Of a stretch of 64,000 nucleotides of DNA, positions 2,771-60,086 are shown piece by piece (within the stretch, counting starts at the first letter, position 1; each line of letters opens with the position of its first letter). The position numbers and the translations under genes were made by a program. A model generated the notes under the pieces. It made no database searches. It worked only from the letters and a program-made list of their open reading frames with translations, and was not told where the DNA came from. This DNA comes from Anthracocystis setariae (Eukaryota; Basidiomycota; Ustilaginomycetes; Ustilaginales; Ustilaginaceae), in assembly GCA_928724745.1 (NCBI GenBank), contig CAKMXJ010000007.1, positions 186,001 to 250,000 on the forward strand, given 5' to 3'.

Positions 2771-5477
2771 GCCCCTCTGCAGTACAGCACGCAAGGCGGC
2801 AAGATTGATTTCTGGGTTCAGGTAGGCCCGATGATGATGGAGGACGGCGAGACACGCGGGTGCGGTTTTATGGCTTGGTGCATGTCATGATCACTGAGGC
2901 TGAGCGTGTCGTTATCCACCTTTATTTCATTGCCGCTCTTTGCCTGAGCAGGCCAGAACAACAAACAGAGCTTTCTCGTCCCTCTTGTCAACTTCGTGCT
3001 TGCAGATACCTTAGATCTCACTGTAAAAGAGATGGATCGGAGGCGGTTGTCTCCCAGATGTGAGTAAAGTGGGTGCGGAGCAAAGTAATGCACGGCATGC
3101 ATGCAGGCAGTTGGAAAAAAATAACCCAACAACAACAACAGAAGATGAGGTCTCCAAGCCCATGTCCCCATGCAACATGCGAGCGTCCACACCATGTTGC
3201 AGACGAGGAAGGTCGAAGCTCACACGAGCCAGGACGAGAGCAAGAAGTAAAGATTCAAAGTGAGAGGGAAACAAATGACTTGGTTGGCGAGGGCAACGGT
3301 GCCGATGACGATCGAGACTCGAGGCGTGGGCTCGAACCTCTTTGGCCCGGTCGATGATGGGGAGCGCTCGCGACGAAGGGCACAGTTCAGATACAGATAT
3401 TAGAAGATGGGCGGCGATGACGGCTGGATAGACCGATTCTGGATCATTCATGCGCGCATCGTCAATAATAACGAGGATCAGAGACAGTAGCTGCAAAATT
3501 GCACAGATCAGATCCACGACACTGCATCGAAAGCGTTCGCGTCTGGCGTTGAGGTGAGCCAACACGAAGCCGAGTCACAACGAGAGAACTCTGCCGAAGC
3601 TTGAAGCTTCGATGGCTATGTGGTGCGTCGCTTGACGTACTGAGAATCTCAGCCGTAGCTACTGTATCAACGCATGGAGCCAGAGAGAGGGTAGAGGGAT
3701 GCACCATATAGGATGGGAGAAAAAGCAGATGGAAGCGTCATAACGACGTCGACTGGTCGTCCACAGGCTCGGTTTGATTCGTCGAGGCTATCGATGAGCA
3801 CTTCGTCTGTCCCTGCGGTACACCTATTAAATGTCAATTTCCAAGCTACTGTAGTTGAGTGCCAAGAGCGCCGCCCCGTGCGGTTGAGCGCAGGTCAACT
3901 TTGTTTAGTGCGTTGCTTGTCGGTTAGGCAGGTTTACTTTCAGTCGGCACATCAGGATCAGCGGCTGGTTGGCAGCCAACGCAGGAGGCAAAGTACAGTA
4001 GTGCGGGTGGCCGTCCATGGTCATCGAAGTTCCGGCGATTTTGATCTGTCTTCTGCTCCTCTACAGCACTACAGTGAAATCAATGCTCTACAGTACCTTA
4101 TATTTTATTCCTTTATTCATTTTTGACGAAACCGCAGCAGCGACATTCAGAGAGGGCCAGACAGCAAGAGCCCGATGTGAGATCGAACCTCAGACAGACC
4201 TAATGCGAATGTCCGAAGGTACAGAACACAGAACAAGAGAGCGTCATGCTATACCACTGCGCGCAAGTCCCAAGTCTGTTTGCATCGAGCTGTGTCTTTC
4301 CCGTCATCCACAAACGGGACGCATCATTGCGACTCCGGAAATTCTGTTCTGGATATCGCCGCCATGTACTTCCAACCTGCACTCCGAAAACTGCGCGCAG
4401 GCACCACACAGACACAAGCACAACCACATACTGTATCGCCCGTAATCGGAAGTGGACCCAACACGAACAAGCGCTAGGCCGCCTCGTGACATCGGTCAGT
4501 ACCTCGTTGCATTTCGCCATCTGTGGTAACGAAGCGTAGCAGCGACGCAGGGCACTACGCCCTCTTGATCGTTAGGAAGGCCGGCTCAAGTTCCGAACAC
4601 CCACCCAAGCAACCAGTGAAACAGTGTACAGTAGAAGCAACACCACCACTTATAGCAATTGACTTTGGCTGTGGCTGAAAGACTCTGGTCCCTTGCGCCA
4701 TCTCAACTTTAACTCGCTCTCGAAGGTGACGTCTGGCAAGCGGCGCGCAGAAGAAACCCGAGGCTGTGCGCGTATAACGGAGAGATGAGAACTCATCACA
4801 TGACAAAGTCACCAAAGGCCAGCCTTCTGGTGTCAGATGAGATGATCGAAGTGGGCCTTCCGATGGTCACGAATGTGATGACAACCTTACTACGCAAGCG
4901 GCTTGAACAGTAGTTGGGAATCCGACCAACCAACCAACACTTGGCCGTAGTCGAGCCACAATTTAGCCGGTGCATCTGCAGAAGTGTTGCTCAATCCAGT
5001 GCATTCATGCATGAATGCTCGTTCTACAGAGTATTGGACTGTGAACCGTGCTGTACAGTGTAGTAAGTCAAACCAACACATCTGAGGCTTTTTTGTCTGC
5101 CTCTTGTTACACCACATCGGTTTGTCGTGGACACCAGATCGACAAGGATAGCTACTACTACTCACTGAGCATCAGATGGGATCCATTAGCTCTCACTTTC
5201 ACCGATCAAGATAGGACGGAGGGGCTTCAGAGCTGATCATCGTGCCAATCACCAATGTGCTTCACCCTACGCTATTCATAGCAAACGGCGTCGATTTTGA
5301 CGAGGCAGCGAGCACATCAATCTGAAACCTGAACGGCTCATGATCGCAGAGACTCGAGTTAGACATGACCTTGACTGCACCGTGGTCAGTGCATTTCTGG
5401 AATTCTTGTTTCACTCCCGTTGCACCTCACACTCAAAAAGTGCCAAAATACTCGCTCGCCTGGCGATCGTGAAAGAT

Positions 5478-5480
<3 letters not shown>

Positions 5481-5509
<29 letters not shown>
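5481..5509. repeat. Poly(T) tract, 29 bases
   Basis: A run of 29 T followed by an A-rich run (AAATAAAAAAAAA), giving a T-then-A structure. Confidence 0.9.
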
Positions 5510-5513
<4 letters not shown>

Positions 5514-5884
5514 AAAAAAAAAGGCACGACAAACAGTACACGTCTGCACAGAATTTCGATTTCTCGATGGCTGCAACTCGTCGATCGTACACCCATCCCC
5601 CGATCTATGCGGCTGCCATGATTTCATCCGGTCCCACACCCTCTCTCTTGGGACATTCTATGCCTCGCTAACGGCGTTCTCATGAGTCAGAGCCCAACGT
5701 TCTCGATGGCCACGAACGCCAACGAACAAGGTTTCCGTCGGATTGCACCGGGCCGTAGAGTGAAGGTCGATCCCGTTGGCGAGCTGCGAGCTGCGTGCGC
5801 CGGGAGCTGGGAATCGCTCGCTGCTCGCAAATCATGTTGGCTGAGCGCGACCAGGCAGGCCTGTGACGGGGTACGATCCTGTCC

Positions 5885-5918
5885 TTGTACAGTACAATAC
5901 TAAATAGAGCAGTACAGT
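5885..5918. repeat. TACTGTA-family motif pair
   Basis: Two neighbouring copies of the dispersed motif: TTGTACAGTACAATAC, then GCAGTACAGTTG a few bases later. The first is a near-perfect palindrome. Confidence 0.5.
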
Positions 5919-6350
5919 TGCATGCCTACGCTGTCTCCTCGTTTGCTCCTTGGCAATATGAGGGTGCACGCTGCGGTCCTCAATTACTGTGCGCTTTCGG
6001 CTGGTTGCGGTAGCGGCCGATGAATGGGGTTCCGAGCCTTTTCGCATCGATCTGTTTCGACCAGCTTGCTGGGACCGGGTATGGTCTAGAACCTGCTGGA
6101 ACTCCATCTATGCACCAGAGCGGATCTATGTCCTGTGCTGCAACTCAGCCCGAAGATGAAGGCCGAAACGCCGATTCTCACCTCACTCTAGAAGGTATGA
6201 GGGCGAAGAGGCGGGGAGGGGGCGTCGTTGCCAGAGGTCGTCGGATCACCAGAGGAACGAAGCCACCGCGGCATCCGATCGAGCTGCAGGTGTTGTTGTT
6301 GCTCTCTCAGCTTCTGTCGACTCGATTGCATTTATGCGCAGAATGCTAGA

Positions 6351-6377
6351 GTGCAGTACAGTGCAGTACAGTACCTG
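6351..6377. repeat. Tandem CAGTACAGT motif
   Basis: The motif GTGCAGTACA is repeated in tandem and then followed by GTACCTG, giving three CAGTAC cores within 27 bases. Same family as the dispersed intergenic motif. Confidence 0.6.
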
Positions 6378-6850
6378 CATCAAGATTCCATCGATATCAA
6401 CTAAACCATTGGTGGAGATCGGCATCCAACCACTTTAAACACAGGCGCTTAATGCAGTGGGACGAAGCATTTCGAGGTCCGCAGATCAGAACAAAAAAAA
6501 AAACGATGCTGTTCAGAACACAGCCCAGCTTAAGAGTGTGCCCTTTGCTTTCCAGAAGCGCCTGTCGTAGAAGATTCCTGGGTAGCGTCTTGGCATTCCA
6601 ATGCGATGTTGTTCGACTCCGAACATTGCAGACATATGAAGGTTTTGCAGTAGTGTGGGCTGCCCACATCTGGTTAGCCTGCATGCGGCTCGGGTTGGAC
6701 GCTCAGGCTCCAGATCGAAAGTCGGCAAAGCGCGTATCATGGCGCTTTCCAAAAACCCGATTTTTGTAACTTACATCTCAGGGTAAGGCTGTTCGATTTC
6801 GAAAGATCGTGGACCTCAAGGCGGGTACAGTGAGGACTGAAGTTAATTCT

Positions 6851-6970
6851 GGATTGGCTTAATGGGTAAGCGGCGCAAGCATCTGGACATCGCCGATCCC
6901 CCGTCCCGTCCAGGGAAGGTTAGACTTGCTCAACCCCCCAAACAAAAAAAAAAAAAAAAAAAAAAAAAAA
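6851..6970 (+). mobile_element. Possible tRNA-like SINE remnant (A-box, B-box-like, poly(A))
   Basis: TGGCTTAATGGG at 6855-6866 fits the tRNA A-box consensus. GCTT and AAGC flank the loop and could form a D-stem. GCCGATCCCCC at 6892-6902 is a degenerate B-box at normal spacing. A poly(A) run of 27 bases starts at 6944. No proper acceptor or T stem can be drawn, so it is not a functional tRNA. A tRNA-derived SINE remnant is possible, but no second copy is seen in this window. Confidence 0.2.
6944..6970. repeat. Poly(A) tract, 27 bases
   Basis: Twenty-seven A residues, followed by further interrupted A runs to about 6988. Confidence 0.9.
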
Positions 6971-7350
6971 CAAAAAAAAGAAAAAAAAGGCGGGCGGGTT
7001 TGACAAGAAGCGTTCGTCGACATCATCAATGACGACAACGCCCTTTCTCTAGTTGTTGGGTGGGGGTGGATCAAGATTCGTCAAGAACTTGACACGTCGT
7101 CATCTTGCTCCCCCACGCCTTCTACTTTCACTTCCTCATCGCCGTCATCGTGTTCCTTCCTCCAGTCAGCTGTACACCTGGGTCTTGTTCGCTGCAAGTC
7201 CCACACAATTACTCTATTGATGATCAGTATTCAACCATACCGCACGGCGACGCCGTGTCGGGATAAAATCATGTCAAACAAAGCGACCTTAAAGTTTAAA
7301 CTGTACACCTGCTTTATTACTTCGGTCAAATCGTCGATCTTCGCTGCCCA

Positions 7351-7536
7351 TCAAACCCACCCTTTCTGGCGCAAGAAATCCATCTCTGAGCTATCCAACC
7401 ACTCATGCTCGCTCTTGTCACCTCCTTCGTCGCCTGGGGGTGGAGCTGGGACGGACACCACTTCGCCCTTGGCGTAGCCGATCGCATACTTGGAGCGTCC
7501 GATTTTGATCTTGTTCGCGGCCGATCGGGGGGCGGC

Positions 7537-7567
<31 letters not shown>

Positions 7568-8670: not shown

Positions 8671-8872
8671 TTCTCTTGCCACCTTCGATATCGTCGAGAA
8701 GAAAAGTAAAAATGAATTGCTATGGGTTCTTGGACCCTTAAACCCCCTCCCTCTTGCCCCGAATTCCGAGAAATCCCCCTCCCCCTCAGCGTCGTGGGTT
8801 GGGGAAGAACACGCATCCCTCGATCCCCCTCTTCCCCTCCTTTCATCATCTATCATCAGGTGTAACATCACC
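8671..8872. promoter_or_regulatory. Divergent promoter between LYR protein and PKR1
   Basis: Only 202 bases separate the two start codons, so the region must serve both genes. It is pyrimidine-rich on the plus strand near the Pkr1 start, as is common in fungal leaders. No clear TATA box is seen. Confidence 0.5.
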
Positions 8873-9303: not shown

Positions 9304-9536
9304 CTGTCCCAATCACAAAAAAAAACAAGAACAAAAAACGATACCCTCAACTCCCAGTCATCACTGCATACACACTTCCGATCCAACCACCCAATCCAAA
9401 CCTAATCACTTCTATCGACACCTTGAGTTCAATCATTCACTTGCTTGCCTCGTACACCGATACCCTCAACCAGAATTCCAGTATGGAAGAAGCAGGCAAA
9501 CAAAGTCAGTTCAAATCAAAGATAAAAGGATCTACT

Positions 9537-10458: not shown

Positions 10459-10490
<32 letters not shown>

Positions 10491-11750: not shown

Positions 11751-12543
11751 GATGGTGCAAGCGCGCTAATTGCGCAATTGATGCGATCGGAAGGGTGGCG
11801 AATGGTGAATGGTGGGTGGTTGGGAAAGAGCAACACTGCTTGGCTTGGTGAGACACACACACACCAACCACACATGAGACATAACCCACCGAAATCACAA
11901 ATTCAGGGTTTGCGAGTTGAGCCGAGTTGAAGTGCGTGTTGGCCATCGTTGTGCGATACAGTACAAAAAAAAAGTAACACGTCGCTCTACCATCGGGTAT
12001 CGGGCGAGAGTGCCTATCCCGCTTCGATTGGACCGTGACTGATGATTCATCATTAATTAATGGACCGTAGCGAGGAGTAATGACTCCACATGCGGACGGA
12101 CAGATGCGATTTGTGTGTTGCGCTGTAGCACTGCAGAGAATCGTGAATACAGTAATACAGTAATAGCACTGCAGAGAATCGTGAATACAGTAATACAGTA
12201 ATAGCTACTGTATTCACAATTAAGTAGTAAAAGGGCCTTTACTGTAGTTTGGTTGATGCTGGGTTGCATAAGTGCGTGGCGCCTCTTGGCAGATGTCTAT
12301 CTATGCCCTTGTCTTGTGCTGCCTCCACTGAAGCAATCATTACTTATTTTAGAACTCGCCATTCTTCGCTTCACTTGAACCAACGTCCATCACCACCATC
12401 ATTTTTTTTCATTTCGTTATACGTTCGTTCGATCGACATCCGTTTTTCATCACCACTACTTGCATCTTCGGTCGCTCCTCTCCTCTCACCGTCAACGGCT
12501 GACCAGCTCAAGTGACAACGCTTCCATCCTGACCACCAACGTC
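11751..12543. other. Divergent intergenic region between dynein LIC and inhibitor-2
   Basis: It contains an A run near 11965, a 38-bp tandem duplication with a hairpin (12127-12217), and the CT- and CAC-rich leader of the plus-strand gene (12360-12540). No gene is supportable. Confidence 0.6.
12127..12217. repeat. 38-bp tandem duplication plus 12-bp perfect hairpin
   Basis: A 38-bp unit starting AGCACTGCAGAGAATC is present twice in direct succession (12127-12164 and 12165-12202). Inside the second copy, GTGAATACAGTA (12181-12192) is followed after 13 bases by its exact reverse complement TACTGTATTCAC (12206-12217). Each unit contains two ATACAGTA cores. Confidence 0.85.
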
Positions 12544-13510: not shown

Positions 13511-13927
13511 CTCAGCTGTGTCTTGTTCTTCTCGTTTTCCAAACCATACGCCCTTATTGATCTGCACTCAGCCCATGTTGTTCTTTTATTCCCGAACCGT
13601 CTTGCCATGTATGTGTCCAACGGCTGTTACAGCTCGTCGCCTTGCTGTGTATCATGTGCTCAGTGTGATGGTAGGTGTGGGTTGGTTCTTTGCCCGCCTC
13701 TTGCTGTGAGGGGATGTGGTGCCCGCTTCGAAATGTGGAGGGTCTCCTCCAAAGCACTTGAGAGTGCTCGACTGTGACTGTGACTGTACTGTATTGCAGT
13801 TTCAGACAGCCGAAATCGCGCACAGCAGCCGTTGAATTTTCAGAGAGCAACACTCGACTGTTGGCGAGTGGCCAATCAACACTCCTCACACATTCGGCAC
13901 AGAAGCGAGTTTTTTTTTTGGGGGCGT

Positions 13928-24343: not shown

Positions 24344-24873
24344 AGTTTGCAGATGCTTGGAGAATATGTGAGAGTGGTGATGATAGAGTAGTAATGAGGA
24401 TGTTGGAGTGTTTGAAAGGAGGAGTCGATTCAAGTGCGTGCTGGCTGCATATTTAAACTAGAAGAAGCCATCATCCGGATTGACACTTGCGGTGCGGAGG
24501 ACCCCTTGCACAGCACATTGCAACGCCCCATGCCGCCGCACTTGGCACTACAGTACTGCCTGCGCCAACCTGTGTGAGATATGCAACAAACGTAACATAT
24601 TCAATAGTTGGCAGGTGCGCTTGCTAATGACTGTATGGGATTTTTCTTGAAAAATATTAGTTAGATTGATTATATCTCACAACAAGCAGTCGCAAAAAAA
24701 AAAACTCGGTGGAGGTGAATCAGGGTCCAACCAACGCAACCCTCGATGCATCCCAACCGTAGTAGAGAAGGACTCGCAGCTACACTTCTGACCTCTTCCA
24801 TGGATTGACGCCACATATCGGTTCCAGCAAACAACAAGCGCCAACGCAGAGCGATGCGCTTGAGCAAGCCAGC
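24344..24873. other. Divergent intergenic region, KEX1-like / SNAPC4-like
   Basis: 530 bases between start codons. TTTAAATAT at about 24450, some 105 bases before the Kex1-like ATG, could be a TATA-like element. A CTACAGTACTG motif sits at 24548-24558. I looked for a signal-peptide exon on the minus strand and did not find one. Confidence 0.45.
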
Positions 24874-28152: not shown

Positions 28153-29136
28153 TCCCATGTCCTTCCCACTCGCCTCCATCTCTCACCTACTTGCACTCAA
28201 TCAGATAAAAAAGAAAAAAATAATACGCACGATACTACTGAATGTGTACCTCGTAATCTATCGAGACATGTTGTTTTTGCTGTTTGTTGTGTTGTCTGGC
28301 AGATGGCAGGATGGAGCGTGGGTTAAGTGAGTGCACGCTCAAGAGGCAGAGAAGGAGTAACCGTCGATACGATGTGAATCTCCGGATTGCACTGCGTGGA
28401 TTTTCGTTCGACCCGATGGCAAACCGATCGCAGTTGACTGCTGCTTCCGCGCGCAGGTCTTGGCACATTAACCGAGACTCGCTGGAGACAAAAGAGTCTG
28501 AGCGTGCCCGACAGAGTAGTGGTAGTAGTGGCAACTTGGACGCATGCGATACGATGGCCACGTCGACCACAGTGTGTGGTGGATTGAGGCGCTGTTAGAT
28601 GGAGCCGCGACCCCCCACTGGATGTCTCAGAGTCGTATTCTCTTCGAAACCAAGTAGCGTAGAGAACACTCTGTGTAGGCAAGAGTGTGGTTTTTTTTTT
28701 CTCGCCGAAAGCAGTTGGGCGGACTCTTAAAACACACACAGCCCAGACCGGCACTTTTTTTCTTTTTTTTTTTTTTTTTGGTGTTTTTAATTAGGTTTGA
28801 AAAAAACGCGCGGATTTTCTTTTGGCGGCAAGCGAGTGTTGGTTACCTTTGCTTGCAGTAGAATGCACGATGCAGTACAATACTGTATGCACCTCTTGGC
28901 TACATGCGGGCCTTTGGCTTGACAGGTGCCTCTCTGTTTGTGCCGAAAAAGAAAGGATGGAAACAGCTTCATGGGTGTGTGCGCTTGGGACTCGCTTCAT
29001 CCCCCCTCACCCATGCAAGAGAGATCATCATCTGTATCCCCCCCCCCCACCGTTTCCACTTTCTTTCATCTCCTCCACCACCACCACCATCACCATCAAA
29101 CCACCAACCACACGGTCGTACCGAACTGATCTCGCC
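28153..29136. other. Intergenic, uS7m / SUR7-like
   Basis: 984 bases with T runs (28690-28700, 28756-28782), a TGCAGTACAATACTGTATGC motif at 28871-28890 and a C/CAC-rich leader before the next ATG. Frames of up to 143 codons exist but have no family resemblance and are treated as chance. Confidence 0.6.
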
Positions 29137-29940
29137 ATGGTCAAGAAATTCTACATTGGCGCACTGGTGGTCTCCTCCATCAGCGCCATCCTCCTCCTGC
29201 TCGTCACCATCTCGACACCCACTACGCTCTCTGCGCCCACCCCCTTCTACTTTGTCTCCTCCAGCAACCTTGGTGGTGTGATCGACCACGCACCCAACAG
29301 CAATACGAGGCGATTGGTCGATTCTGTTCAATTCGGCACTTGGGGCTACTGCTCCTCCGCCGTCAACGCCTCGGGCTACGCCTGCTTCCGTCACCGTCAC
29401 GGCTACAGCGCCACTTTTGGCATCAACCCGAACGGCACCACTGCCAACACCGCCGCTGTCGCCAACGTCACCATCGGCTCCTCCTGGACTCGCGGTCTCG
29501 CCGTCCACGTCGCTACGTTCACCCTCTCTGGCGTGGGAGTGGTCCTCACCGCCATCCCTAACCAAAAGGTTCACGTGGCCGCAATGGGCGTCAACGCCGC
29601 AGCCGCACTGCTGGCGCTCATCGCGTTTGCCATCGATATCGCGCTGTTTGTCTACGTCCAGAATCAGATGAGGAGGATCGCTCCCAAGGCGAGCACCGCT
29701 CCAGGTCCCGCGTTCTACATGGCGCTGTTCGCCATCCTTGTCGCAACGGGCGCTACAGTGCTCAATTGGCTCAACTGGAAGAAGGAGAAGGACTACGATT
29801 ACGGAGCGGGCGGCGAGGCGTGGAACAGTCACCGTATGGAACCGACCAGTACAACGACGGAAGCGACGGCGTATGCGGGTGCAACGGCTAGCGAGAGGAA
29901 GGTTCTCGACGCTTACAACCAGGAGTCTAAAGGGTATTGA
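29137..29940 (+). CDS. SUR7/PalI (Rim9)-family four-span membrane protein (267 aa)
   Basis: The start is the ATG at 29137 (MVKKFYIGALVV). A first membrane helix covers about residues 5-27. An extracellular loop follows with the hallmark FGTWGYCSS...ACFRH, the claudin-like Trp/Cys motif of this family. Three more hydrophobic segments come next (about 112-132, 140-165, 188-208), then a cytosolic tail with KKEKDYDYG and Thr/Ala-rich sequence. Members sit in the plasma membrane, either in eisosome/MCC domains (Sur7) or in the Rim alkaline-pH sensor complex (Rim9/PalI). The sequence alone does not tell which. The loop has several NxT/NxS sites. Length is typical. Confidence 0.8.
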   Translation: MVKKFYIGALVVSSISAILLLLVTISTPTTLSAPTPFYFVSSSNLGGVIDHAPNSNTRRLVDSVQFGTWGYCSSAVNASGYACFRHRHGYSATFGINPNGTTANTAAVANVTIGSSWTRGLAVHVATFTLSGVGVVLTAIPNQKVHVAAMGVNAAAALLALIAFAIDIALFVYVQNQMRRIAPKASTAPGPAFYMALFAILVATGATVLNWLNWKKEKDYDYGAGGEAWNSHRMEPTSTTTEATAYAGATASERKVLDAYNQESKGY

Positions 29941-30052: not shown

Positions 30053-31098
30053 TGGGAATAGTGGGAAGCAGCGTGGGAGATGAACTCCTGTACTTGACCA
30101 CAAATCCTCTTCTCAGCTGGCTAGGTGGCGAGTTTTGGCAGGCACTGTGGGTTAACCAGTTGATGTCATCGGAACGAATCAACGGGTTTGGACAGCTGGC
30201 AGATGCTCGCTTTCACCAGTGTGGTTGCGGATCGGCAGTACGGGTTGAGGTGCATTGATTGCAGATTGAGCGATCGTCTCAACAACAATCTTTCAGGCCA
30301 AGACTAAGAAACAGGAGCTCGTACGCTAAGAAAGCGAGGAGATCGAAATCATTCGCTCTTACGTTCAACAACGATGGATGCTGAACCAGCCAAGGTTTTG
30401 TTTGTGCAGAGCTTCGAACAGCTCAAGCATGATGAATCATCGCAAGTTGGACTACACACGATATCGATAAAAGCAGTGATATTGGGAATCGAGACGATGA
30501 CAAGGTGTGTTGAAGCTAACAATGACCCGTGTGATTGCAGTTTTGTGTGAACGAGACAGACGAACCCAAGTGCAAGGACACGAGCTCCTGCACAAAACCC
30601 CTGCATCCGTCGATTGATCTAATCGGAAAACGAGCCGATATGGCGGTCCAACAACCTACAAAGACGAACACCGAAACAGCTTCGACCACCTCCTGCAGCA
30701 CCTTTATCAGACCCGCTTGCTTGGCTGACACCAGGAAAAGTACAATAATACTATTACAGTAAAGATGGGCAAATTTATATAGATCGTCCCCGTGATTGGT
30801 CCTTTGTCTCAACCTTTCTTGGGCGTTCAGAAGAGCTTTGATCCAGTTTAGCCACCACTTTACCTACTTCCGTACAGCACGCACCTCTCTTCCATCCTTT
30901 GCGACAAAAGAATCGCACCAATTTCTACCAGACTTTATAATGTAGACTACTGTAGGTTCACGCGCGGGCTAGCAATTCGGATGGGGAGGCAACAAGAAAC
31001 ACACCGAGGTAGCCAGCCATTCATGTTCTCGCAGTAACTTGATACCAAAAAAAAGGGAAACAAGACATGTGGTAGTTGTAAATCCATGTTACGCCTAA

Positions 31099-31111
31099 CT
31101 GTACAGTACAG
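31099..31111. repeat. TGTACAGTACAG palindromic motif
   Basis: CTGTACAGTACAG, one of the best matches to the dispersed intergenic motif. Confidence 0.5.
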
Positions 31112-31780: not shown

Positions 31781-32307
31781 CCTTCACCCCCCCCCGGGAA
31801 TGATTCCGTGGTGGATTGGTGAAAGGTGAGGTTATGAGTGCACAGCTATTGCATGTTCTAGGCGCACTACTGTAACATAGTGAGCGCGGCCTTTTCCTCA
31901 ACTGAAACCCAATTAGTGGAAGAAAAGATTCAAGCCATGCCTCACAGCCCCGATATCTGTCTCAAACCCCCGCATTCATCCAATTCCCGGAAGACTCTAG
32001 ATTCAGCACGGAATCTTCCTGCTCACTTCCATACGAACCCTTCCCTCCGTCGCTTCAGCCTTCATACCGACTCTGTCTCGTATCACTGCAACATAGTGGT
32101 GTGTTGTACAGACCGGACTGCACAGCAAAAAAATGGTTGACGGAAATAAAGCTCGAGGCAGTGCATATATTAATTTTTTTTTGGATCGCGTCGGATGTCT
32201 CACGCAGCCCGGAATGGTCTCCGTAACAGTGTTCGAACACATGTCCTCCAGTTCCACACGAACCAGATTTGAATGGTTGTCCCGAGACTCATAGAGGAGA
32301 TAGCTAG

Positions 32308-32659: not shown

Positions 32660-34174
32660 TAAACAGCTATCGGAACGGTGCTGCAAACCCAGCTACGCTT
32701 TGACGGATTAGATCTGCTTGGTACAGAAAGAAGACCAGAACGGTGTCAAGGATGACACGTTTTGGACAAGTGCCGCAAGAAACGTGGTTCTTCCGCTAAG
32801 GATGCATCGATGGACTCATCCAAAGTCGTATATCGCCAACCTGTTTCAAATCCTATACATTGTAACACTGAGAACGAAGCTCGGGCGAAAACTCCGTGAG
32901 CCTAGCTGTACACATTTCCACCGCATTAGGCAATCTCGGATGTTGGCAAGAATTCAATGCTGATCTTGCTCTCACCCTCAAAGATCACTCTATAAGTGTT
33001 TGATGATTCGCGATTGCCCATCGCTCTAGTAGCAGAGAGCAGAGCTGGAAGTGGACTGTCATCGCTTTTCCGATAGATTGGCTGAATCGGCTCTAGTGAT
33101 GTGCAGTGGCTGTACAGTAGTAGTTTGAGCGGAATGTGAGTTGAGTTCCGGGCATATTTGGGCAGCACTTGTCAAACAACGCACGCGCGATTTCTCCTTG
33201 GCGTACACAGCTTTATGGTCAGATAGCTGCGACCTCGAAAGTCATAACGATAGCAAACATGAGCCGCCTCTATGTGCCTCTCTGTTCGCCAAAGGTGAGG
33301 TCAGAAGTGATGTAGAAGATTGAGTGGAACTGGATTTCTTTCGGCATTCGGTCGGGCTGAAACAAAGCACGGGACTGTGAAGGCGGTTTTTTTTTGTTTC
33401 GGCCAACAGGAGGCAGCGCTACGACACCGGATTAAAAAAAAAAATAACTCGATCGCATGAGATCCTGGGGAGATTGCCCACGCGGGCAACGATGGCACAT
33501 GCGATCGTAAAGGCAAACACCCTCTCCCGGGACTCCCAAGGATGATTGCGAGGACCACTCAATCGTTTGTGACTTTGGATTATCGGCGGGGAAGAGCTAG
33601 AAGATCTAACTTTCCTTAGCCGAAAAAATTCTGACATCTCGTTTCTCACTCCCCTTTGTCTCGCCCATCATCTCCCCCTCAAGGCAAGCGTCGCTCTAGT
33701 CTGACCTTGCCGCCTGTTTTTATCACCCTTCCGTTCCCCCTGTATGACTCGCTCTTCTCTGCGGTCGACCGGCCCGTACGGCGAGCCGTAAGTCTCAAGA
33801 GCCAGCCAAAGACCCCGCTGACCCACAATCTAACATAAGTCTCATGCCTCATTCTGTTTCGCACCCCAAACCTGAGTTGGCATCCAAAGATCATCCTCAC
33901 AGATCCGAGCACGAAAACGATTCAACAGATGCGGTAAAATCCACACCAACGACTCGCATTACTTCCCCCCTTCCCCCCCTTTCCCTCTCTGATCAAGCTG
34001 GTGTGTGCAGCCAGCTCACGTCTCGATGCCCCTTCCCTCTCTCTCTCCCTCTCTCTCTCTCTCTCTATATTTGATTCCATGGAATGGAAAATTGGGCATT
34101 ATTCTCTTTGTATCTCGTGAACAGCGCAACTCTCTTGGATGAATGCATCTCGAATTGGGGAGACTTTGTTTGTC
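32660..34174. other. Gene-poor stretch upstream of the GPI13 3' end
   Basis: No supportable gene. A minus-strand frame at 32926-33168 ends in YRVIFEGESKISIEFLPTSEIA, which looks mildly protein-like but has no recognisable start or family. Contains T runs near 33387, an A run near 33434, a TGTACAGTAG motif at 33111-33120 and a (TC)n run near 34045. Confidence 0.5.
34036..34066. repeat. (TC)n microsatellite
   Basis: Interrupted CT/TC run followed by TATAT. Confidence 0.8.
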
Positions 34175-37990: not shown

Positions 37991-38450
37991 CCTATGCTGC
38001 TTTCCAAATCAGCTAGGAAGTTGAAGGAAGAGGTAAGAAGCGTGGTGATGATCCAAGGAGGAGAACAACAACGACGAGAAGAAAAAAAACGCTCGGCCAC
38101 GCGAAGTTGTCCAACGCCGAGAAACAGCGACATCGCCGGAAAACGGTCCGTGCGCCACAACACACCTTCCCCTCCTCCACTTCCTCCACCAATCACATGA
38201 TATATAACATTGTCTTCCGTACTCAGCTTGATGCAAACCTCCGCCGGCCGTTCAATATAAAACTTCTGTCGAGCACATGCCAACGAGAACAGCGATGCGA
38301 TGCACGCTTGAATGTGTAGATATGATACAGTATTTACAATTTTGAGGCTGATGCTGTGTGCCCACCTATGCCAGTCCGGAAAACCTATTCACAAGCAATG
38401 CAATCTATGTACATCCTTCTCTGTGCAGCTAGGCAGGGGAGGGGTATCAA
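37991..38450. other. Intergenic, GPI13 promoter / Ca-ATPase 3' flank
   Basis: 460 bases between two tandem minus-strand genes. A GATACAGTATTTA motif is at 38324-38336. No gene seen. Confidence 0.5.
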
Positions 38451-43060: not shown

Positions 43061-43715
43061 CTGCTGTACTGTCACACAGTTCAGCGCTGCATCCGCCACA
43101 AGAAATGGATAATGATGATGATGATGATGCAACCCGAATGGATGCACTGGACTTGGCGGAATTGCAGTGTACAGTAGTGGTGCCTTTTTTTTTTTTTCTT
43201 TTTTTTTGGTCACCGGTGAAATGCTCCGTGTCGCACTTTATGCACGCCAAGACCAGGTGCATTCTGTCATTCTTTTTTCTTTCGCCCTCAGTTTGGGCAG
43301 TTCTACAGTACTTTACCATAGCGAGGAGAGAGTGCAGTGTAGGGTAGAGTACAGTAGTCGTGAGTGTGGGTCCTATTTTTGGGGTCATTCGATTTTCAAG
43401 CTTCTCCTGCCACTGATGGCTTAATGCCAACTACTGGTACAGTTTACTGTTCTTGCGACACTGCCCTCTGTTCACGTTGACGCCTTGGCATCTTGACTGC
43501 ATTCACCGTCATGTCTCTCTCTCTCTCTCTCGCGATCTGCTTCGAGTACACTACAGAAACCAATGATTCGCCTCTGTCTTGTCTCGGTGATCATATGCTC
43601 ATGCTCATGCCTATGTTCATGCTCTGCCACGTGAAGAGATATCTTGCCTCTCCACTCTACTTTCGAAGCGATCCTTGTCGATGCTAACCAGGATGTACAG
43701 TATATTGGTACAGTG
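43061..43715. repeat. Cluster of TACTGTA-family motifs
   Basis: Copies read at 43064 (TGTACTGTC), 43169 (GTGTACAGTAG), 43303 (CTACAGTACTT), 43347 (GAGTACAGTAG), 43437 (GGTACAGTTTACTGT), and 43694 (TGTACAGTATATTGGTACAGTG). This is the densest cluster in the window and lies in non-coding DNA. Confidence 0.55.
43514..43532. repeat. (TC)n microsatellite
   Basis: About nine TC units. Confidence 0.85.
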
Positions 43716-48216: not shown

Positions 48217-48262
48217 TACTGTACAATGCAGTACTGAAATGGTACCAGACTGTACTGTACAC
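48217..48262. repeat. TACTGTA-family motif cluster
   Basis: Within 46 bases: CATACTGTACAATG, GCAGTACTG and GACTGTACTGTACACC. The last is a near-palindrome. Confidence 0.6.
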
Positions 48263-48684
48263 CTGTAAAAATTCAGCGGTGTAGCGTTTGGAATTGCAGG
48301 CTGCCACGCACGCTCAAATTGAGTCAAAAGGGTTCTCTTCTGCAGTGCAATGCAACTCGCACAGCACACCCTTTATAAGTTGGCGAAATTTAGCACGCAA
48401 GTTGACAGTGCTCTACAGCAACGGCTTTCTGCTCTGCCATCGGAGTAGTACCGATTTTGTTCCGGCCCGTGTTACAGTTGCAAGTAGTGCAGGAAAACGC
48501 AAAGCTCCACGATTGGGCGCTACAGTACAGTGTGGTATCAGAATTTTAACGTTTCTGGATTGGCAACGCGCATTAGGCAGTGTCGAGCGCCCTTTTTTTT
48601 TTTTTGGTGCACTTCGGCTGAGCCGGTCCTGCCTGTCGCTTGCCTCTTCTCGACATCGATTGCAGATCGCCACATAAAGCCCTT

Positions 48685-52976: not shown

Positions 52977-53984
52977 ATGAAAGATCCAACGATTGATGAG
53001 GTCGCTGGCTAGGTCAGCCCACACGGGCAGTATTACTATCCATGTTACCGGTAATGATTACATTCAAGTTGAGGATTGACCTGACCTTTCTGGCTGGTTT
53101 TCGGGCTGTTCGCGGGTATGAGCATGAGTTTGACGGGCGAGGGGAAGGCTGGAAGATGCGGAAGGGGCGACGGACGGAGGTCGCGGACATGGAAGAAGAT
53201 GGTTTTGTGCTGAGTGAGTGTTTTTAGCCGTTTCCCCGCAATACTGGACGGGGGCACTCATGGAGAGAATCCGCGGTGAAAGCGGAGAGTGCCAAGAAAT
53301 GGGATCGAGGACTTGGCATTTTTGATGGGATGGTTCTGTTGGTGTAGCTAGCTCAATTGGGCCTTGTGTTAGTTTGGATCATGGTTTGGTTGCACTTGCG
53401 AAGCTTTCCGGCCCTCGTTTGTTCCCACCTCTTATCGCGGCTGTCATCTGATCGTTCAACTTGCGGCCACGTTGTTCGGTCACCTAGTCGTAAGCGTTGT
53501 GTGTTTGCCGTCCTCCCCGTGATTGCCGTTACCGCTGTCCGGTTAGGATGGATTGAGTTACCCGAGCTTGTCCCCAGCAAGCCAAACCGCCGAGGACGGT
53601 GTTCCTGGATTGCAATCGCCAACTTGCTCATCCCCGCACTGCAACGTCTGCGTGCATGGGTGGCGTGTGCGAAACGGTTGCGCTTCTCACGCGGGTCCCC
53701 ACATTTCATCTCAACCGCTAGCGCGGTTGGGTGGGAACGAGGCCCGTACTGTACAACCTTTGACGCTTGTTGAGCAAATGAGAAGAGGAGGACGAGCTCC
53801 GAAGGGGTTGCTCAATTCCGGTTGGTCTGACTCGATGCATGGAAGCGCAAGGTATAACTACTGTCCTCCCCTCGCCACCTCTGCCACCCTTGCTCCGCTT
53901 TCTTCCCGCACCCTTCCCTCCCTCTCCACGTCTCCGCACCCGCACCGTGCGCACTATCCGTTAGGACCAAGGAGAACAGCAAGG
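52977..53984. other. Intergenic / leader of the MFS gene
   Basis: 1008 bases. A frame continuous with the MFS gene is open from 53553 but lacks MFS homology. A CCCGTACTGTACAACC motif is at 53743-53758. A CT-rich leader (53880-53940) precedes the ATG. Confidence 0.55.
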
Positions 53985-55556
53985 ATGACGATCACCACTC
54001 CACCCGGCGAGATTCGCGAGGTCGACTCGGCTTCGTCCAACGATGAGAAGAACGCTGCCTACGATGGCAAACATCTTGTCGGTTCAATGGTTGCACCTCT
54101 CTACGCCACCGAGACGCCCAAAACCACCGACGCAGAATCCATCATGTACGATGCTGCCACCGAGAAGCGACTGATCCGCAAGGTGGACCTGATGATCGTC
54201 CCCACCGTAGCAGCTCTGTACCTCATGTGCTTCATCGACCGAGCCAACGTAGGCAACGCGCGAATCGCAGGTCTCGAAAAGGATCTCGGAATGAACCCCA
54301 AATCGTACCAGTTCAACATCCTGCTCACCGCGTTCTACGCAGCCTACGCGGCGTTCGAAATCCCCTCGACCACACTCACCAAGATGCTGGGCCCGGGAAA
54401 GTGGATCCCCGCCATGGCGTTTATGTTCGGAGTGCTCAGTATGGTCATGGCGTTTGTCACCAACTTTGCTGGTGCGGTTGCTGTGAGGTTGCTGCTGGGA
54501 ATCGCAGAAGCAGGCATGCTGCCATCGATCGCTTACTACCTTTCGCGATGGTATCGAAAGGACGAACTGGTCTTCCGTCTCGGCTTGTATTTGGTGACGG
54601 CGCCATCTGCGGGCGCCTTTGGCGGCTTGCTGGCTTCAGCCATTCTAAAAATCCCTCACATCGGCTCGGTTCGAAGCTGGGAAATGATCTTCCTTGTCGA
54701 GGGACTCATCACCATCGCCGTCGCCATCATCGGATTCTTTACGCTGACCGACTCGATCTCGACCGCGCGATGGTTGACACCGGAGGAAAAACAATTCCTC
54801 GAAGCGCGTCTCAAGTCCGAACTGGTGGGTCAGACGCAACTCGTGGACAAGACGCATAAGAAGCTCATCTGGAAGGGGATCACTTCGACCACATCGTTGG
54901 CTTGTGCAGCCATGTTCCTGCTCGACAACATTGCAGTTCAGGGCATAAGTGTATGGATCCCTACGATCGTTCGTGGAATCTTCCCGCCTCCTCGGTACAA
55001 TGTGATCCAGCAACAGCTGCTTACGGTGCCACCCAACGTTGCCGGTGCCATTGCGACGTTGGCGTTTGCATATGCCAGTGCCAAGTTCAAGAATCGCTCG
55101 CTCTTCTCGATCTCGGGCTCGCTGCTCATGACGATCGGCTATGTCATGTTCCTCGGCTCGCACAACCTGTCGGCTCGCTATGCGGCTTCGTTCTTCGCGA
55201 CCAGTGGAGCGTTTACTCAGGGTGCGCTCTTGCCAGCTTGGGCAGCGGTGAATGCCAACAACGACAGCGAGCGCACGGGCGCTATCGCGGTGACTGTGTT
55301 CTTTGGAAACATCGGCGGTTTGATCTCAACTTGGTCGTATCTGAGCAAGTATGCGCCCGACTTTGTCCCCGGTAACGCCCTCAACGTAGCCGGCGGCGTC
55401 ACCATGATCCTGATCGGCATCACGCTGGTGGCTTGGCAGAGGTGGGAGAATCAACAGCGAGACGCAGGTAGGAGGGACCATAGATTGGTCGGGCTCAGCG
55501 AGCACGAGATCGTGCTGCTCGGAAGCGATCATCCAAACTTCAGATTGAGGTACTGA
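53985..55556 (+). CDS. MFS transporter, Dal5/anion:cation symporter family (523 aa)
   Basis: The protein begins at MTITTPPG; the in-frame upstream stretch is not protein-like for this family. After a cytosolic N-terminus, the first helix carries KVDLMIVPTVAALYLMCFIDRANVGNARIAGLEKDLG, the signature of the Dal5/allantoate permease-like group. About 12 membrane helices follow. The loop between helices 2 and 3 holds TTLTKMLGPGKWIP, and later LLGIAEAGMLPSIAYYLSRWY is the family's second signature. Relatives import allantoate, nicotinate, pantothenate, biotin precursors or other small carboxylates; the substrate cannot be read from sequence. Length is normal for the family. It converges on the phosphate symporter downstream. 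Confidence 0.88.
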   Translation: MTITTPPGEIREVDSASSNDEKNAAYDGKHLVGSMVAPLYATETPKTTDAESIMYDAATEKRLIRKVDLMIVPTVAALYLMCFIDRANVGNARIAGLEKDLGMNPKSYQFNILLTAFYAAYAAFEIPSTTLTKMLGPGKWIPAMAFMFGVLSMVMAFVTNFAGAVAVRLLLGIAEAGMLPSIAYYLSRWYRKDELVFRLGLYLVTAPSAGAFGGLLASAILKIPHIGSVRSWEMIFLVEGLITIAVAIIGFFTLTDSISTARWLTPEEKQFLEARLKSELVGQTQLVDKTHKKLIWKGITSTTSLACAAMFLLDNIAVQGISVWIPTIVRGIFPPPRYNVIQQQLLTVPPNVAGAIATLAFAYASAKFKNRSLFSISGSLLMTIGYVMFLGSHNLSARYAASFFATSGAFTQGALLPAWAAVNANNDSERTGAIAVTVFFGNIGGLISTWSYLSKYAPDFVPGNALNVAGGVTMILIGITLVAWQRWENQQRDAGRRDHRLVGLSEHEIVLLGSDHPNFRLRY

Positions 55557-56109
55557 TCAGGTTCAAGCATCCATGCCATGGTTTCGGCAGATCCAGGTGC
55601 GTGTATATTAGTTTCACTCTTTGCTTTTCCCGAATGAAAGGGGCGTTCGGATCCAGTCGAGAACAGGGTCCAGTAGACAGAAGTGTGAAAGCATATCACG
55701 GATCAAAATGAGTCTTTCTCGAACTGTGGTCGTCGACGTCAGAACGTGAATCCGACACGGACCACCTTGCGATTCGCCAATTCGACCTAGCCTGAAGACA
55801 GCTGAGCGCTTGATCGATGGTGGTTGCAGCCTTTCCGCTCAGGTGAACGTGGATGTAAATGAAGTTGCAGCAGCCAACATGAGACGTCATACATCAACTT
55901 GCATGATGTGCTGATCCCCATCGACAACACTCGACATGGACTGTCATGCAATTCGACAAAGCAACATCACGTAAGTTTCCCGGGAGCAGGCGTGCGATAT
56001 GCAGAACGAGTAACGATTCTGCCAAGCATTTTGATATCTACATCGAGTATCAAGTCAAGAGCGACAGTGGACTCCACTTTTCCAACGCATGTAAAAGCAG
56101 CGAGGAAAA
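55557..56109. other. Convergent 3' intergenic region
   Basis: 553 bases between converging genes. Nothing beyond ordinary 3'-flank sequence is seen. Confidence 0.6.
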
Positions 56110-57996
56110 TTAGAGGATGGGGGAAGGGGTTGTCCAACTCGGGGCGTTGAGGACGATGGCTAGCAAGCAGCCGGAGATAAGACCTGCAATGGGGAGGGTG
56201 AGGACCCAGGAGAAGAAGATCCAGCCGAGCATTCTCCAATTCATGGCCTTGTAGTCGCCGTTGCAGAGACCGACGGCTAGGGTTGCGCCTGTGATCGATT
56301 GGGTGGAGGAAACCGGTAGGCCGAGGTAGGAAGCGATGATGACGGTGATCGATGCACCGAGTTCCATGGAGAACCCACGCGAGGGGGAGTGCATGGTGAG
56401 ACGGTTACCGAGTACCGACATGAGTTTCCATCCATATGTGCCGAGACCGATCACGATGGCAGCACCACCATAGGCGAGAATCCAAATGGGAACCGGTTCC
56501 TTGCTGCCAGGGAAAAGCGAGGTGGACCAAACAGCGTAGACAACAGCGAGCGGACCGATGGCATTGGAGACATCGTTGGCTCCATGTGCGAATGAGGCAG
56601 TACATGCCGTCATGACCTGCATGAACGAGAACAGGTGTTCAACACGATTGTCATACTGTTCAGCAACGGCGTGCATTTGGCGCAACTTGGCTTTCTCCTT
56701 TTCAGATCCGTGCGCCTGCATGGCATGAATGTCGGTCCTCAGTCCAGCAGAGACGGAATACCACATCCACGGCAGCGCATTGTAGCGCAAAACGATGTAC
56801 ATGTTCCAAGGCTCCATCCAACTCCCGTCGAAAGTGCGGTATTTAGGAGGAGTCGGACGACCTGGAACGTCGTTTCCGTTGAACTTGACCGCGCGAGCTC
56901 CCTCGAGTTCAGCCTCAACTTGAGCCAGCTGAGAAGGATGTGTACGGGTTTCGTTCGAGCTGGACTGGAAAAGTTTGGCATCCTTTTCGTCCGAGGACGA
57001 ATTGGCATGGTTGTCCGCCGAATTGGCGCTGGCGATTTCGTCCGTATTGGGATTCTCCAGAGCTGCACCGGCTACAGCAGGCTGAGCCCGAGCAGCAGCA
57101 GCGACGCGGGGCGAGTCGTCGGCAGGGTCAGCAAAGTCATGAAGACGGTAATCAGGGACGGCTGAGTCGGCTGTAACAGCGTCCTCTGGAGCCGGACGCC
57201 ACCAGAGCAGAGGACCCATGAAGATGTGGTACCACTTAAGAGTGTAATCGCCCTTGACCACTTTGCCGTAAACGTACGGGAGCCAGAAAAGGATGGAAAG
57301 AGCCGCAACCACCGCGGCGGTGCCGAGGACAGCAGCGACAGTGGTGCCGGCGGGGAGGTTCTTCAGATTGAGCGACGGGGAGCCTTTGACGATGATTGAG
57401 ACGGTGAGGATACCAGCGACGATGAAAAAATAGATCGGAGCAGTGATGAGGCCTGCTTTCACGGGATCTCTGGCTTTGAGCACAACATACTTGGTGATGA
57501 GATAAACGATCGCGGCAAACCCACCTGCAACGGCAGGAGAGATGAACCACGAAGCGAAGATCTGTGCCACACCGTTCCATCCCCACTTGACACCCTTAGC
57601 ACCATTGACAGCAATACCGACACCGATGACAGAGCCAACGGTGGTGTGGGTGGTGGAGACCGGCATGGCATGACGGGTAGCGAACGTCAACCAAGTAGCC
57701 GAGCCGATGATGGCGCAAGTGAAGGCGAGAAGAAGCACCGACGCGTTACCCTCAAAGACGTTGAGGTCGATGATGCCGTTCTTGATGGTCGACGCAACAC
57801 GAGCACCGACGAGCACGGCACCGAGGAACTCGCAAAAGGCTGCTGCGAACATGGCCTGCTTGAAAGTGAGTGACTTGGACGAGACCGAAGTGGCAAACGA
57901 GTTGGCTACATCGTTGGCACCTATACCGTAAGCGTTGACGAACGCGCCGATCATGGAGAAGGCGAAGAGGTAGTCATATTCGTGATACTTGGGCAT
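56110..57996 (-). CDS. PHO-4 family (Pho89-like) phosphate symporter (628 aa)
   Basis: The start is the ATG of MPKYHEYDYLFAF at 57996; the frame is open upstream but without ATG. Both halves of the inverted-repeat PiT/PHO-4 family are present: GANDVANSFATSV (residues 26-38) in the first and HGANDVSNAIGPLAVV (about 470-485) in the second, the two phosphate-binding signatures. MPVSTTHTTVGSVIG in the first and PVSSTQSITGATLAVG in the second complete the repeat. About 10-12 membrane helices flank a hydrophilic central loop (about 250-450). Fungal members (Neurospora PHO-4, yeast Pho89) import phosphate with sodium and are induced on phosphate starvation. A CACGTG site lies upstream. Confidence 0.9.
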   Translation of the reverse strand: MPKYHEYDYLFAFSMIGAFVNAYGIGANDVANSFATSVSSKSLTFKQAMFAAAFCEFLGAVLVGARVASTIKNGIIDLNVFEGNASVLLLAFTCAIIGSATWLTFATRHAMPVSTTHTTVGSVIGVGIAVNGAKGVKWGWNGVAQIFASWFISPAVAGGFAAIVYLITKYVVLKARDPVKAGLITAPIYFFIVAGILTVSIIVKGSPSLNLKNLPAGTTVAAVLGTAAVVAALSILFWLPYVYGKVVKGDYTLKWYHIFMGPLLWWRPAPEDAVTADSAVPDYRLHDFADPADDSPRVAAAARAQPAVAGAALENPNTDEIASANSADNHANSSSDEKDAKLFQSSSNETRTHPSQLAQVEAELEGARAVKFNGNDVPGRPTPPKYRTFDGSWMEPWNMYIVLRYNALPWMWYSVSAGLRTDIHAMQAHGSEKEKAKLRQMHAVAEQYDNRVEHLFSFMQVMTACTASFAHGANDVSNAIGPLAVVYAVWSTSLFPGSKEPVPIWILAYGGAAIVIGLGTYGWKLMSVLGNRLTMHSPSRGFSMELGASITVIIASYLGLPVSSTQSITGATLAVGLCNGDYKAMNWRMLGWIFFSWVLTLPIAGLISGCLLAIVLNAPSWTTPSPIL

Positions 57997-60086
57997 TTTC
58001 GGCAGATGATTCTTCTCTTTCCCAATGGAAAAGGATGATTCACTGCCAGTGTAAAGGGGAGGTCTAGACAAGGTGAACGACAATGCACCGTGCAAGCCTG
58101 AAGGAGGAAGTGGGTGTAGATGCTGTGGCAAAGAATGGCAAGGAAAAGGGGAAGTTGAGGACGTCGACTCAGGCTTCTTTTAAGGTCCCTAGAGTCCAGA
58201 TCTTGCTGGAAGACTAGGGTCGTCACTCTCGCCCGGCCATGGACGCTCACTACACGAATTCCTCCGAGGAGCCCGAAAAGTATCGATATTGTCAGAAACG
58301 AGGATCGCGTGCATTGAACCGGCTGGCTGAACACTAAGAAGAATTGCGTGAGTTCTCAGCCGACCGGGGGAGACGAAAGATGAGAAAGGGGAAAGGTAGT
58401 CCGAAACTGGAAAGCTTTGCTACACTCGCATGAGTCAAGAGGGTTTGCCGATTCGAGAACGTGGACAACTTGAATCAGCGCCACGCCGTGGTTTGAGAGA
58501 ATTTGATGCCACCGCAAATCCGTATGCCATGCCGCAGGTGTCTAGAGTCTTACTTCTTGGCAAGGATGGTAGCAGCACAATACCATGATCCGAACGCTGA
58601 GAATCAGAGGGGATGCCCACGTGCAAAGCAGGAACAGTTCAGAGATGCAGATTGGAGAAAAAGCGAGAGTAGAACGGAAGCGAGCACAGGGAGTAACCAG
58701 TCGTGGCATATAGTCTAGTGATTGTCTTGGCATCAGTGGCTAGGCGGGTTGTGCTTTTTAAAGCGGGGTATAGTATGTCTGAGAATGTGGAGACCTCCGA
58801 GAGATCCAGAAGCATTTCGTGGGAGTTCAGTGATGTGATGAGAAAGCCAAGAGCTGCAGAGACCCTGTCAAGAGATCAAGATTTGAAAACGTGGACTGGA
58901 GCATGAACGCCTGACAGCATGGAATCGGGATGACGGTCGAAGTGTTTGGAATGACAAGAGGTATACGGGACAGCCGTGATGCGGACCACGAAGCGGAGCC
59001 ACGGAGAATTGCGGTAAAGGGAATACTGCAAGCTCAGAAAGCGAAGCATGAGCTTTGCAGCTGGAACACACGGAGTCAGAGCCATCAGCGGTGTCGGGAA
59101 GACGACAACCGTGATGGGTTGAAAAGGTCAGGGCTGGAAGGTGGGTCAGTAAAACCCTAAACGCGATGCATGCAGGGCGGTGTGGTTGTTTTCGAACTGG
59201 AAATGCCAAGAACAGGCAGGCAAAGGACTTGGTAAAAGTGTTTACATGCGAGTACAGTACTTTCGAGGCCCCCTGGATATCGTGTTGTGGCGTGGCGCTG
59301 ACTGTCGCAAGCCAGGTCGGTTGTTCTGTGTTGGTAAATCAATAGTAAGTAGGCCGGCCATGTGCAATGACAGGAGCAGCTGGTTGGGTTGGTCGCTTGC
59401 TATTTCTGCCGTGGATCCATGGCTGTGATGAAGAGCAGGATGCATTTGCAAGGCGACCTCGACCCAACTGTCGTCAGAATGCCAAGAAGCGCAAAGGTGG
59501 CGAAAGGCATCGCCAAGAAATGTCCGAGCCTTGGCGCAATTGGACAGGCGCAAAAGCGCCGTCGATGCGTTTCAGACGGTCGAGAAGTGAAATACGCGAA
59601 ACGTGTCCATCTGGATTTCTTGGCTTTGCGTGCAACACCAGGACCGTTTGTTGGTGTTGAAGTACAAGGTTGCCGCAAGTACTTTCATGATACAGTACCA
59701 CCTTTGAGATCTGTTTTCGTTTGCCGTGTCGGAAGGAGCAGGATGCAAAAGTGATGCAATGATCAAACGTGTTAGGTTTCTTCGTGTTGACCAGTTTGCT
59801 TTATTATAATTCGCTCCAGGTAATTAAACGAGTGTTTGTGCGACTGACCTCGATCTGACACTCTTAATTCCGTTTGAAAAAATCGCACAGGCCAACGCGG
59901 AATTTTCCTCCACTTTGGCTCAGCCAACGCGTCAAGATCACTGTGACTGATCGGCACTGTCACAAACCCAATCAATCCACCATTCACATTGCCCACCTCC
60001 CTCCTTTTAGCTTGTCTGCCACCATATCCTAGCTCGAGGCCTGTTCGATCGCAGTCGAGGACATCAACCAAGCTGTCTTGACCATC
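57997..60086. other. 2.1 kb divergent intergenic region, phosphate symporter / CAND1
   Basis: No supportable gene. Frames of 60-121 codons on both strands have no signal peptide or family signature. It holds a CACGTG site at 58618, and GTACAGTAC motifs at 59252 and 59691. The last 100 bases are the CAND1 leader. Confidence 0.55.
58617..58625 (-). promoter_or_regulatory. CACGTG box, possible phosphate-response site
   Basis: On the minus strand the site reads GCACGTGGG, matching the core and favoured flank of yeast Pho4 and Neurospora NUC-1 targets. It lies about 620 bases before the start of the phosphate symporter, on the same strand sense. One site alone is weak evidence; E-boxes occur by chance. 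Confidence 0.35.

Follow-up and report, generated by a model that had tools for sequence, protein, structure and literature searches.

Most copies of an intergenic 7-bp palindrome in Anthracocystis setariae are probably excision footprints of Tc1-type transposons

The 64,000-nucleotide stretch of the Anthracocystis setariae genome analysed here (contig CAKMXJ010000007.1, C7:186001-250000; hereafter the window) raises the question of why one short palindromic word recurs in the DNA between its genes. About thirty TACTGTA-type copies had been claimed in a preliminary description made from the letters alone, and the count bore this out with 35 exact copies of TACWGTA (W = A or T), that is TACTGTA or TACAGTA, where 100 dinucleotide-shuffled versions had 1.20 on average and never more than 4. 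An exact copy lies no more than 16 bases from 22 of the 24 positions which it listed, while 5051 and 26950 are one-letter variants. The unit was corrected to a single 7-bp odd palindrome, self-reverse-complementary around its central W, in place of TGTACAGTA; the perfect 12-bp palindrome is absent from the window. The analysis points with good probability to most TACWGTA copies being excision footprints (scars) of cut-and-paste transposons of the Tc1/Sleeping-Beauty type, whose inverted repeats start with CAG.

The abundance of the word was determined in the whole genome and in two samples of it, C7:86001-350000 (264 kb, including the window) and 50 kb of C3, together 314 kb of the one genome. 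Coding status was taken from open reading frame (ORF) calls, with limits of at least 200 or at least 150 amino acids (aa), in place of annotation, and the reversed word ATGWCAT served as control. Genome-wide, TACWGTA was found 7,537 times (3,740 + 3,797) and the reversed word 2,345 times (1,183 + 1,162); the two strands were equal, showing no strand bias, and A and T occupied the centre at about 1:1. The counts for TGTACAGTA were 565 + 603 against 56 + 55 in the control. Outside ORFs of at least 150 aa in the 264 kb, 98 copies were observed for 5.7 expected under a second-order Markov model, which made TACWGTA the top 7-mer there, simple repeats aside. Intergenic counts no higher than composition predicts, the outcome that would have ended the earlier proposal, were thus not obtained; the excess was large. 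Among the 32 TANNNTA classes, CAG/CTG was the outlier with 112 copies for 6.9 expected (314 kb, outside ORFs of at least 150 aa). Isolated copies showed a sharp 7-bp core with flanks of little information, and a single substitution lowered the enrichment from 16.3-fold to between 0.75-fold and 2.9-fold, a C or G centre giving only 1.36-fold. One-mismatch words altered outside the centre were in excess mainly by transition (128 for 59.9 expected; transversions, 123 for 100.4), and this transition-biased halo resembles mutational decay rather than a set of positions at which a binding site tolerates change.

Elements with the matching tips reside in the same genome. The DDE_3 transposase profile gave 70 matches, 69 of them above the cut-off, and the eight regions read (L034-L041) fell into five families. 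Family C is about 1.35 kb long (L038:424-1773) and lies between TAs as TA-CAGTACCTGTCCAAAAGTTTCCGC...-TA; its left end in L038, TA followed by CAGTACCTGTCC..., matches the right end, and the tips are CAGT. The 358-aa ORF has DDE_3 and HTH_Tnp_Tc3_2 matches above the cut-offs and an HTH_SB match just below (41.5 against 43 bits), and its best named match, 52% identical, is in Ustilago trichophora. The transposase profile, the helix-turn-helix domains, the TA duplication and the short terminal inverted repeats (TIRs) mark family C as a Tc1-type transposon. Allowing up to three mismatches, 59 ends with its TIR were found in the genome and none in the control. Their pairs comprise 12 that have perfect ends and span about 1.3 kb (L038 included), one of 1.7 kb and five of about 655 bp, the last being too short for a transposase. 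Stop-free frames of 352-362 aa accompany 16 DDE_3 matches of similar profile range, membership in family C being confirmed only for those with TIR pairs. Family D (L039:541-2183, TA-CAGTGCGTTCG...-TA) also starts with CAG next to TA, while the tips are CACC in family A (L034-L036 and the derivative L041), CTCC in family B (L037) and TTCC in family E (L040).

Some further features of these elements were observed. A structure of about 3.95 kb outside the window, L011:2697-6645 (C7:108697-112645), has inverted ends alike over about 160 bp, with the likeness extending slightly further outward; it contains a family-C end and ORFs of 129-183 aa. The family-A derivative L041 (C8:433000-435000) is built of two arms in inverted orientation, which share 99.6% identity over 770 bp and carry the same TACWGTA sites. 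The family B transposase (L037:577-1818) matches the PAX paired-box domain at 28.4 bits against a cut-off of 22.

Tips beginning with CAG predict a footprint TA-CAG-TA or TA-CTG-TA, the excision chemistry being inferred here from Sleeping Beauty. Insertion at a TA would duplicate it, and excision with a 3-base stagger would leave the terminal three bases of both ends behind as CAG overhangs on the flanking DNA; the outer C and G would pair and the central A:A mismatch would be repaired to A or T, giving TACAGTA or TACTGTA and a gain of 5 bp. Re-insertion at the same TA followed by a new excision would add another 5 bp and so build (TACWG)n ladders, the enlarged site offering two TA targets in the favoured context. 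Scars in exons would cause frameshifts and be purged, and those in spacers would persist, some being reused, and decay by point mutation. In two experimental papers, TAC(A/T)GTA is given for all sequenced Sleeping Beauty excision products, the primer itself having ended in the footprint (PMC3432063), and TACAGTA and TACTGTA are given as the two consensus Sleeping Beauty footprints, with a frameshift if in an exon (PMC4378557). This form was followed in preference to TAG(T/A)CTA, as printed in PMC2874221. For a fish element with junctions TAcagc, footprints of zero to three base pairs are described in PMC7913693.

The predicted 5-bp step was observed between paralogues, for which the family-A copies were used, with the off-target rows L082 and L084 (3' region) and L083 and L085 (leader) left out. 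In the 3' region, five of the 15 on-target rows are empty (L080, L088 (GAACTGTATTGTAGCGC), L036, L092, L093) and seven are filled (L086, L087 (GAACTGTACTGTATTGTAGCGC), L034, L041, L089, L090, L091). Five further bases are present in L041, L089, L090 and L091, which have ATTGCACTGTAGCGC for ATTGTAGCGC, and in the leader L079 equals L077 plus five bases at the same place. Exact 5-bp presence or absence was thus seen at three places between family-A paralogues. An empty-site search over 173 sites gave clear paralogues only for family A among the matches listed, the other matches being ladders.

The insertion sites of family C were analysed from the flanks of 17 elements of its type, which are all the correctly oriented and spaced TIR pairs besides L038. 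All 34 flanks have G before the duplicated TA, which makes GTAC the target, and the half-site GTACWG, read from outside, is matched by G in 21, T in 18, A in 26, C in 24, W in 30 and G in 34 of the 34. When the flanks were joined, TACWGTA spanned the target TA in 12 of 18 empty sites (11 of the 17, and L038, whose element sits in a ladder), comprising 10 of 13 long elements and two of five short ones. The background is 101 of 976 GTAC sites with TACWGTA (about 10%, 314 kb), and the binomial p for 12 of 18 is about 1.5e-8. Family C thus seems to reuse its own scars as landing sites; the preference may be for scars as such or for GTAC with CWG neighbours, and the effect is the same. A further proposal, which we hold only tentatively and with somewhat more doubt than belief, is that family C is auto-targeting. 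Excision would create its preferred site CWG-TA-CWG, each jump would leave two better landing pads, and the roughly 5,000 scars (7,537 less 2,345) with their cycle-counting ladders would constitute a fossil record of cut-and-paste transposition.

Besides 76 isolated copies among 120 intergenic ones, TACWGTA forms 5-bp-periodic ladders, (TACWG)n. Their pentamer phase is specific, the TACWGTA phase being enriched 13-19-fold, the eight other rotations 3.4-8.2-fold and other pentamer classes 2.6-fold at most. The 43 exact two-unit arrays at the places listed on C1 and C2 have the centres TA in 13, AA in 12, TT in 11 and AT in 7, one of the 13 TA arrays (C2:1457551) overlapping a transposon end and being a junction and not a scar pair. 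The two centres are independent (chi-square 1.93, p 0.59). Repeated visits predict independent centres and slippage predicts uniform ones, so the two-unit arrays are unlike the product of slippage. Genome-wide, the mixed 12-mers have 202 (TACTGTACAGTA) and 198 sites, the controls 0 and 1. The longest ladder among the places listed is a uniform TACTG ladder at C3:105275-105336 with 11 overlapping 12-mer matches.

Several results weigh against the excision explanation. In the 76 isolated intergenic copies, G before and C after occur together in only 13, one of the two in 35 and neither in 28. Most isolated copies are therefore outside the GTAC context, which means that family C, as it now targets, is not the maker of most of them and that other CAG-ended donors are needed; the only other such donor found, family D, has four TIR ends. 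A target context shared with present elements does not belong to what defines a footprint. The isolated scars would then derive from family C or, for the most part, from older and less choosy relatives that are now lost. Among the paralogues, L035, L076 and L078 match neither the empty nor the filled state (3 of 15), L036, L076 and L086 differ by 13-14 nt at the second family-A site, the leader rows L035, L036 and L081 carry a 1-nt variant, TACTTGTA, and the third 5-bp difference stands at TATTGTA, one transition from TACTGTA. Tandem duplication of CTGTA could account for each of these 5-bp steps, in one case together with a transition. Half of the longer ladders at the listed places on C1 and C2 are uniform (11 of 22, the other 11 being mixed), so slippage adds to the long ones. 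ORFs of at least 150 aa in the 314 kb hold 14 copies for 5.1 expected from their own composition and are not below chance, this set including doubtful ORFs. The minor blunt filled-in product TACAGCTGTA, a side prediction that does not define the explanation, was not enriched (11 against 55 in the control). The scars predicted for other families were also poorly represented in the 314 kb, with CAC (family A) enriched 2.7-fold and CTC (family B) 2.3-fold, at ranks 6 and 9 of 32 and below TANNNTA classes with no known donor, and with TTC (family E) absent (0 for 3.6 expected). The tips of families A, B and E are not self-complementary at their outer bases, and clean scars may not necessarily be expected of them.

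These results leave some room for the opposite order of events, in which TACWGTA existed first as a motif of the host, such as a site for a dimeric transcription factor, family C then evolved to target it, and only the ladders are scars. The landing of family C on TACWGTA in 12 of 18 cases suits this order, as do the lack in most isolated copies of the GTAC context now required by family C and the fact that every paralogue 5-bp step adjoins TACWGTA-like or CTGTA sequence. It is nevertheless judged unlikely, as the motif is identical to the product of CAG tips at any TA, the halo resembles decay more than tolerated binding positions, and depletion next to stop codons is lacking.

The earlier claim of no copies in coding sequence came close, as 34 of the 35 window copies lie outside ORFs of at least 200 aa; the copy at 28881 lies inside one, and the 14 copies in ORFs of at least 150 aa also qualify it. 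In the 264 kb, ORFs of at least 200 aa (162 kb) hold 4 of 109 TACWGTA against 20 of 32 ATGWCAT, and in the 50 kb of C3 the numbers are 2 of 17 against 8 of 12. With the limit of 150 aa, the 264 kb have 11 copies inside and 98 outside, the reversed word 20 inside and 12 outside. A 5-bp gain shifts reading frames, and this fits the intergenic excess. Within the spacers the picture is ambiguous. Divergent spacers carry 1.36 copies per kb, tandem ones 1.04 and convergent ones 0.58 (264 kb). Of 120 inter-ORF copies, the 300 bp upstream of an ATG hold 15 for 28.3 expected, fewer than in every one of 2,000 permutations, and the 300 bp downstream of a stop hold 17 for 16.6 expected.

A transposon-free reading, in which an abundant dimeric factor of general regulatory function binds the word upstream of genes, would agree with the intergenic position, the higher density in divergent than in convergent spacers, the sharp 7-bp core and the scarcity close to ATGs. 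It would leave unexplained the absence of any depletion near stops, the overlapping 5-bp ladders with independent centres, the 5-bp indels in paralogues and the matching transposons in the same genome, and we regard it as very improbable; a protein-binding site is much less likely than an excision scar. The preliminary description had offered a binding site, a replication or chromatin element, a transcript-processing signal or a repeat remnant. A binding or processing role is not needed, given the uninformative flanks, the equal strands, the depletion at ATGs and not at stops, and the mixed neighbours, although the word may have a secondary role. Nearest to the result was its idea of remnants, which stand here as remnants of transposon excision and not of a self-multiplying palindromic repeat. 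The promoter-motif reading was rejected on the flanking proteins, which are functionally mixed; 13 of 20 have a Pfam match, including BET bromodomain, dynein light intermediate chain, p24, clathrin adaptor, P-type ATPase, MFS and others. A palindromic miniature inverted-repeat transposable element was rejected on the uninformative flanks of isolated copies, and scanning 314 kb and nine short loci for ends TAC...GTA with at least 16 of 20 matching bases brought up two family-A elements, one structure with long TIRs and nothing else.

Growth of a pentanucleotide microsatellite (TACTG)n by replication slippage, which the long uniform arrays such as C3:105275-105336 and half of the longer ladders would favour, is scarcely credible as the general source in view of the one pentamer phase far above the others, the two-unit arrays mixed as often as uniform and the 76 isolated copies, and a simple pentamer satellite is ruled out by phase specificity and mixed centres.

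Excision footprints as such are textbook knowledge, and impala of Fusarium leaves comparable scars. The footprint presumed here is identical to that of Sleeping Beauty in its seven base pairs, its W centre and the 5-bp gain at a TA, and family C resembles that element in being of the Tc1 type, in its CAGT tips and TA duplication, and in an HTH_SB match that falls slightly short of the cut-off. The Sleeping Beauty footprints were experimentally induced, whereas in this genome thousands have seemingly accumulated, in ladders and with insertions on older copies. The LexA SOS box also contains TACTGTA and TACAGTA half-sites; it is bound by a bacterial repressor and has a longer, fixed frame, and nothing in this genome points to it. 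Fungal Tc1/mariner elements, such as Fusarium impala and Fot1, are named as active in PMC2874221; family C is likewise fungal and differs in having its best named match in Ustilago trichophora. The open-access literature searched, most subscription journals lying outside its coverage, gave no such smut motif or scar system among the papers listed. What would be new is the footprint as the leading intergenic word, with ladders and reuse. If the explanation is true, scars would allow the past transposition of departed elements to be counted and dated, 5-bp insertions would rank among the main causes of variation in the spacers of this fungus, motif discovery on its promoters would yield a false 'binding site', and the reuse of scars would give target choice a simple positive feedback.

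The exact copies in the window are collected in Table 1.

Table 1. Exact TACWGTA matches in the window, read on the + strand; the designation as scar is presumed.
Word	Position	Strand	Remark
TACTGTA	2055..2061	+	presumed scar; outside ORFs of at least 200 aa
TACTGTA	3660..3666	+	presumed scar
TACTGTA	3847..3853	+	presumed scar
TACAGTA	3994..4000	+	presumed scar; G before
TACAGTA	4089..4095	+	presumed scar; C after
TACTGTA	4429..4435	+	presumed scar
TACAGTA	4627..4633	+	presumed scar; within TGTACAGTA
TACAGTA	5888..5894	+	presumed scar; GTACAGTAC context
TACAGTA	6367..6373	+	presumed scar; adjoins 5-bp-periodic DNA (GCAGTACAGTGCAGTACAGTACC)
TACAGTA	11957..11963	+	presumed scar
TACAGTA	12148..12154	+	first unit of 38-bp tandem duplication
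TACAGTA	12156..12162	+	8 bp from copy at 12148
TACAGTA	12186..12192	+	second unit of 38-bp duplication
TACAGTA	12194..12200	+	second unit of 38-bp duplication
TACTGTA	12206..12212	+	presumed scar
TACTGTA	12240..12246	+	presumed scar
TACTGTA	13787..13793	+	presumed scar; inside opposite-strand 166-aa ORF, perhaps no gene
TACAGTA	24549..24555	+	presumed scar; C after
TACTGTA	28881..28887	+	11 bases inside predicted start of ORF 28870-29940 (356 aa); sole copy in an ORF of at least 200 aa
TACAGTA	30755..30761	+	presumed scar
TACTGTA	30948..30954	+	presumed scar
TACAGTA	31102..31108	+	presumed scar; CTGTACAGTACAG context
TACTGTA	31868..31874	+	presumed scar
TACAGTA	33113..33119	+	presumed scar; within TGTACAGTA
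TACAGTA	38326..38332	+	presumed scar
TACAGTA	43170..43176	+	presumed scar; within TGTACAGTA
TACAGTA	43304..43310	+	presumed scar
TACAGTA	43350..43356	+	presumed scar
TACAGTA	43696..43702	+	presumed scar; within TGTACAGTA
TACTGTA	48217..48223	+	presumed scar (TACTGTACA)
TACTGTA	48253..48259	+	presumed scar; CTGTACTGTACAC context
TACAGTA	48521..48527	+	presumed scar; C after
TACTGTA	53747..53753	+	presumed scar; GTACTGTAC context
TACAGTA	59253..59259	+	presumed scar; GTACAGTAC context
TACAGTA	59691..59697	+	presumed scar; C after

The 38-bp tandem duplication with its four TACAGTA copies occupies positions 12133-12205 of the window. One window protein was searched, and its ten best named relatives are all from smuts (Ustilago, Melanopsichium, Sporisorium), with 57-64% identity. 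Outside the ORFs of C7:86001-350000, the word CTTGGC/GCCAAG was also enriched about 1.9-fold (137 for 72.2 expected), and we take it to resemble the PacC/Rim101 site.

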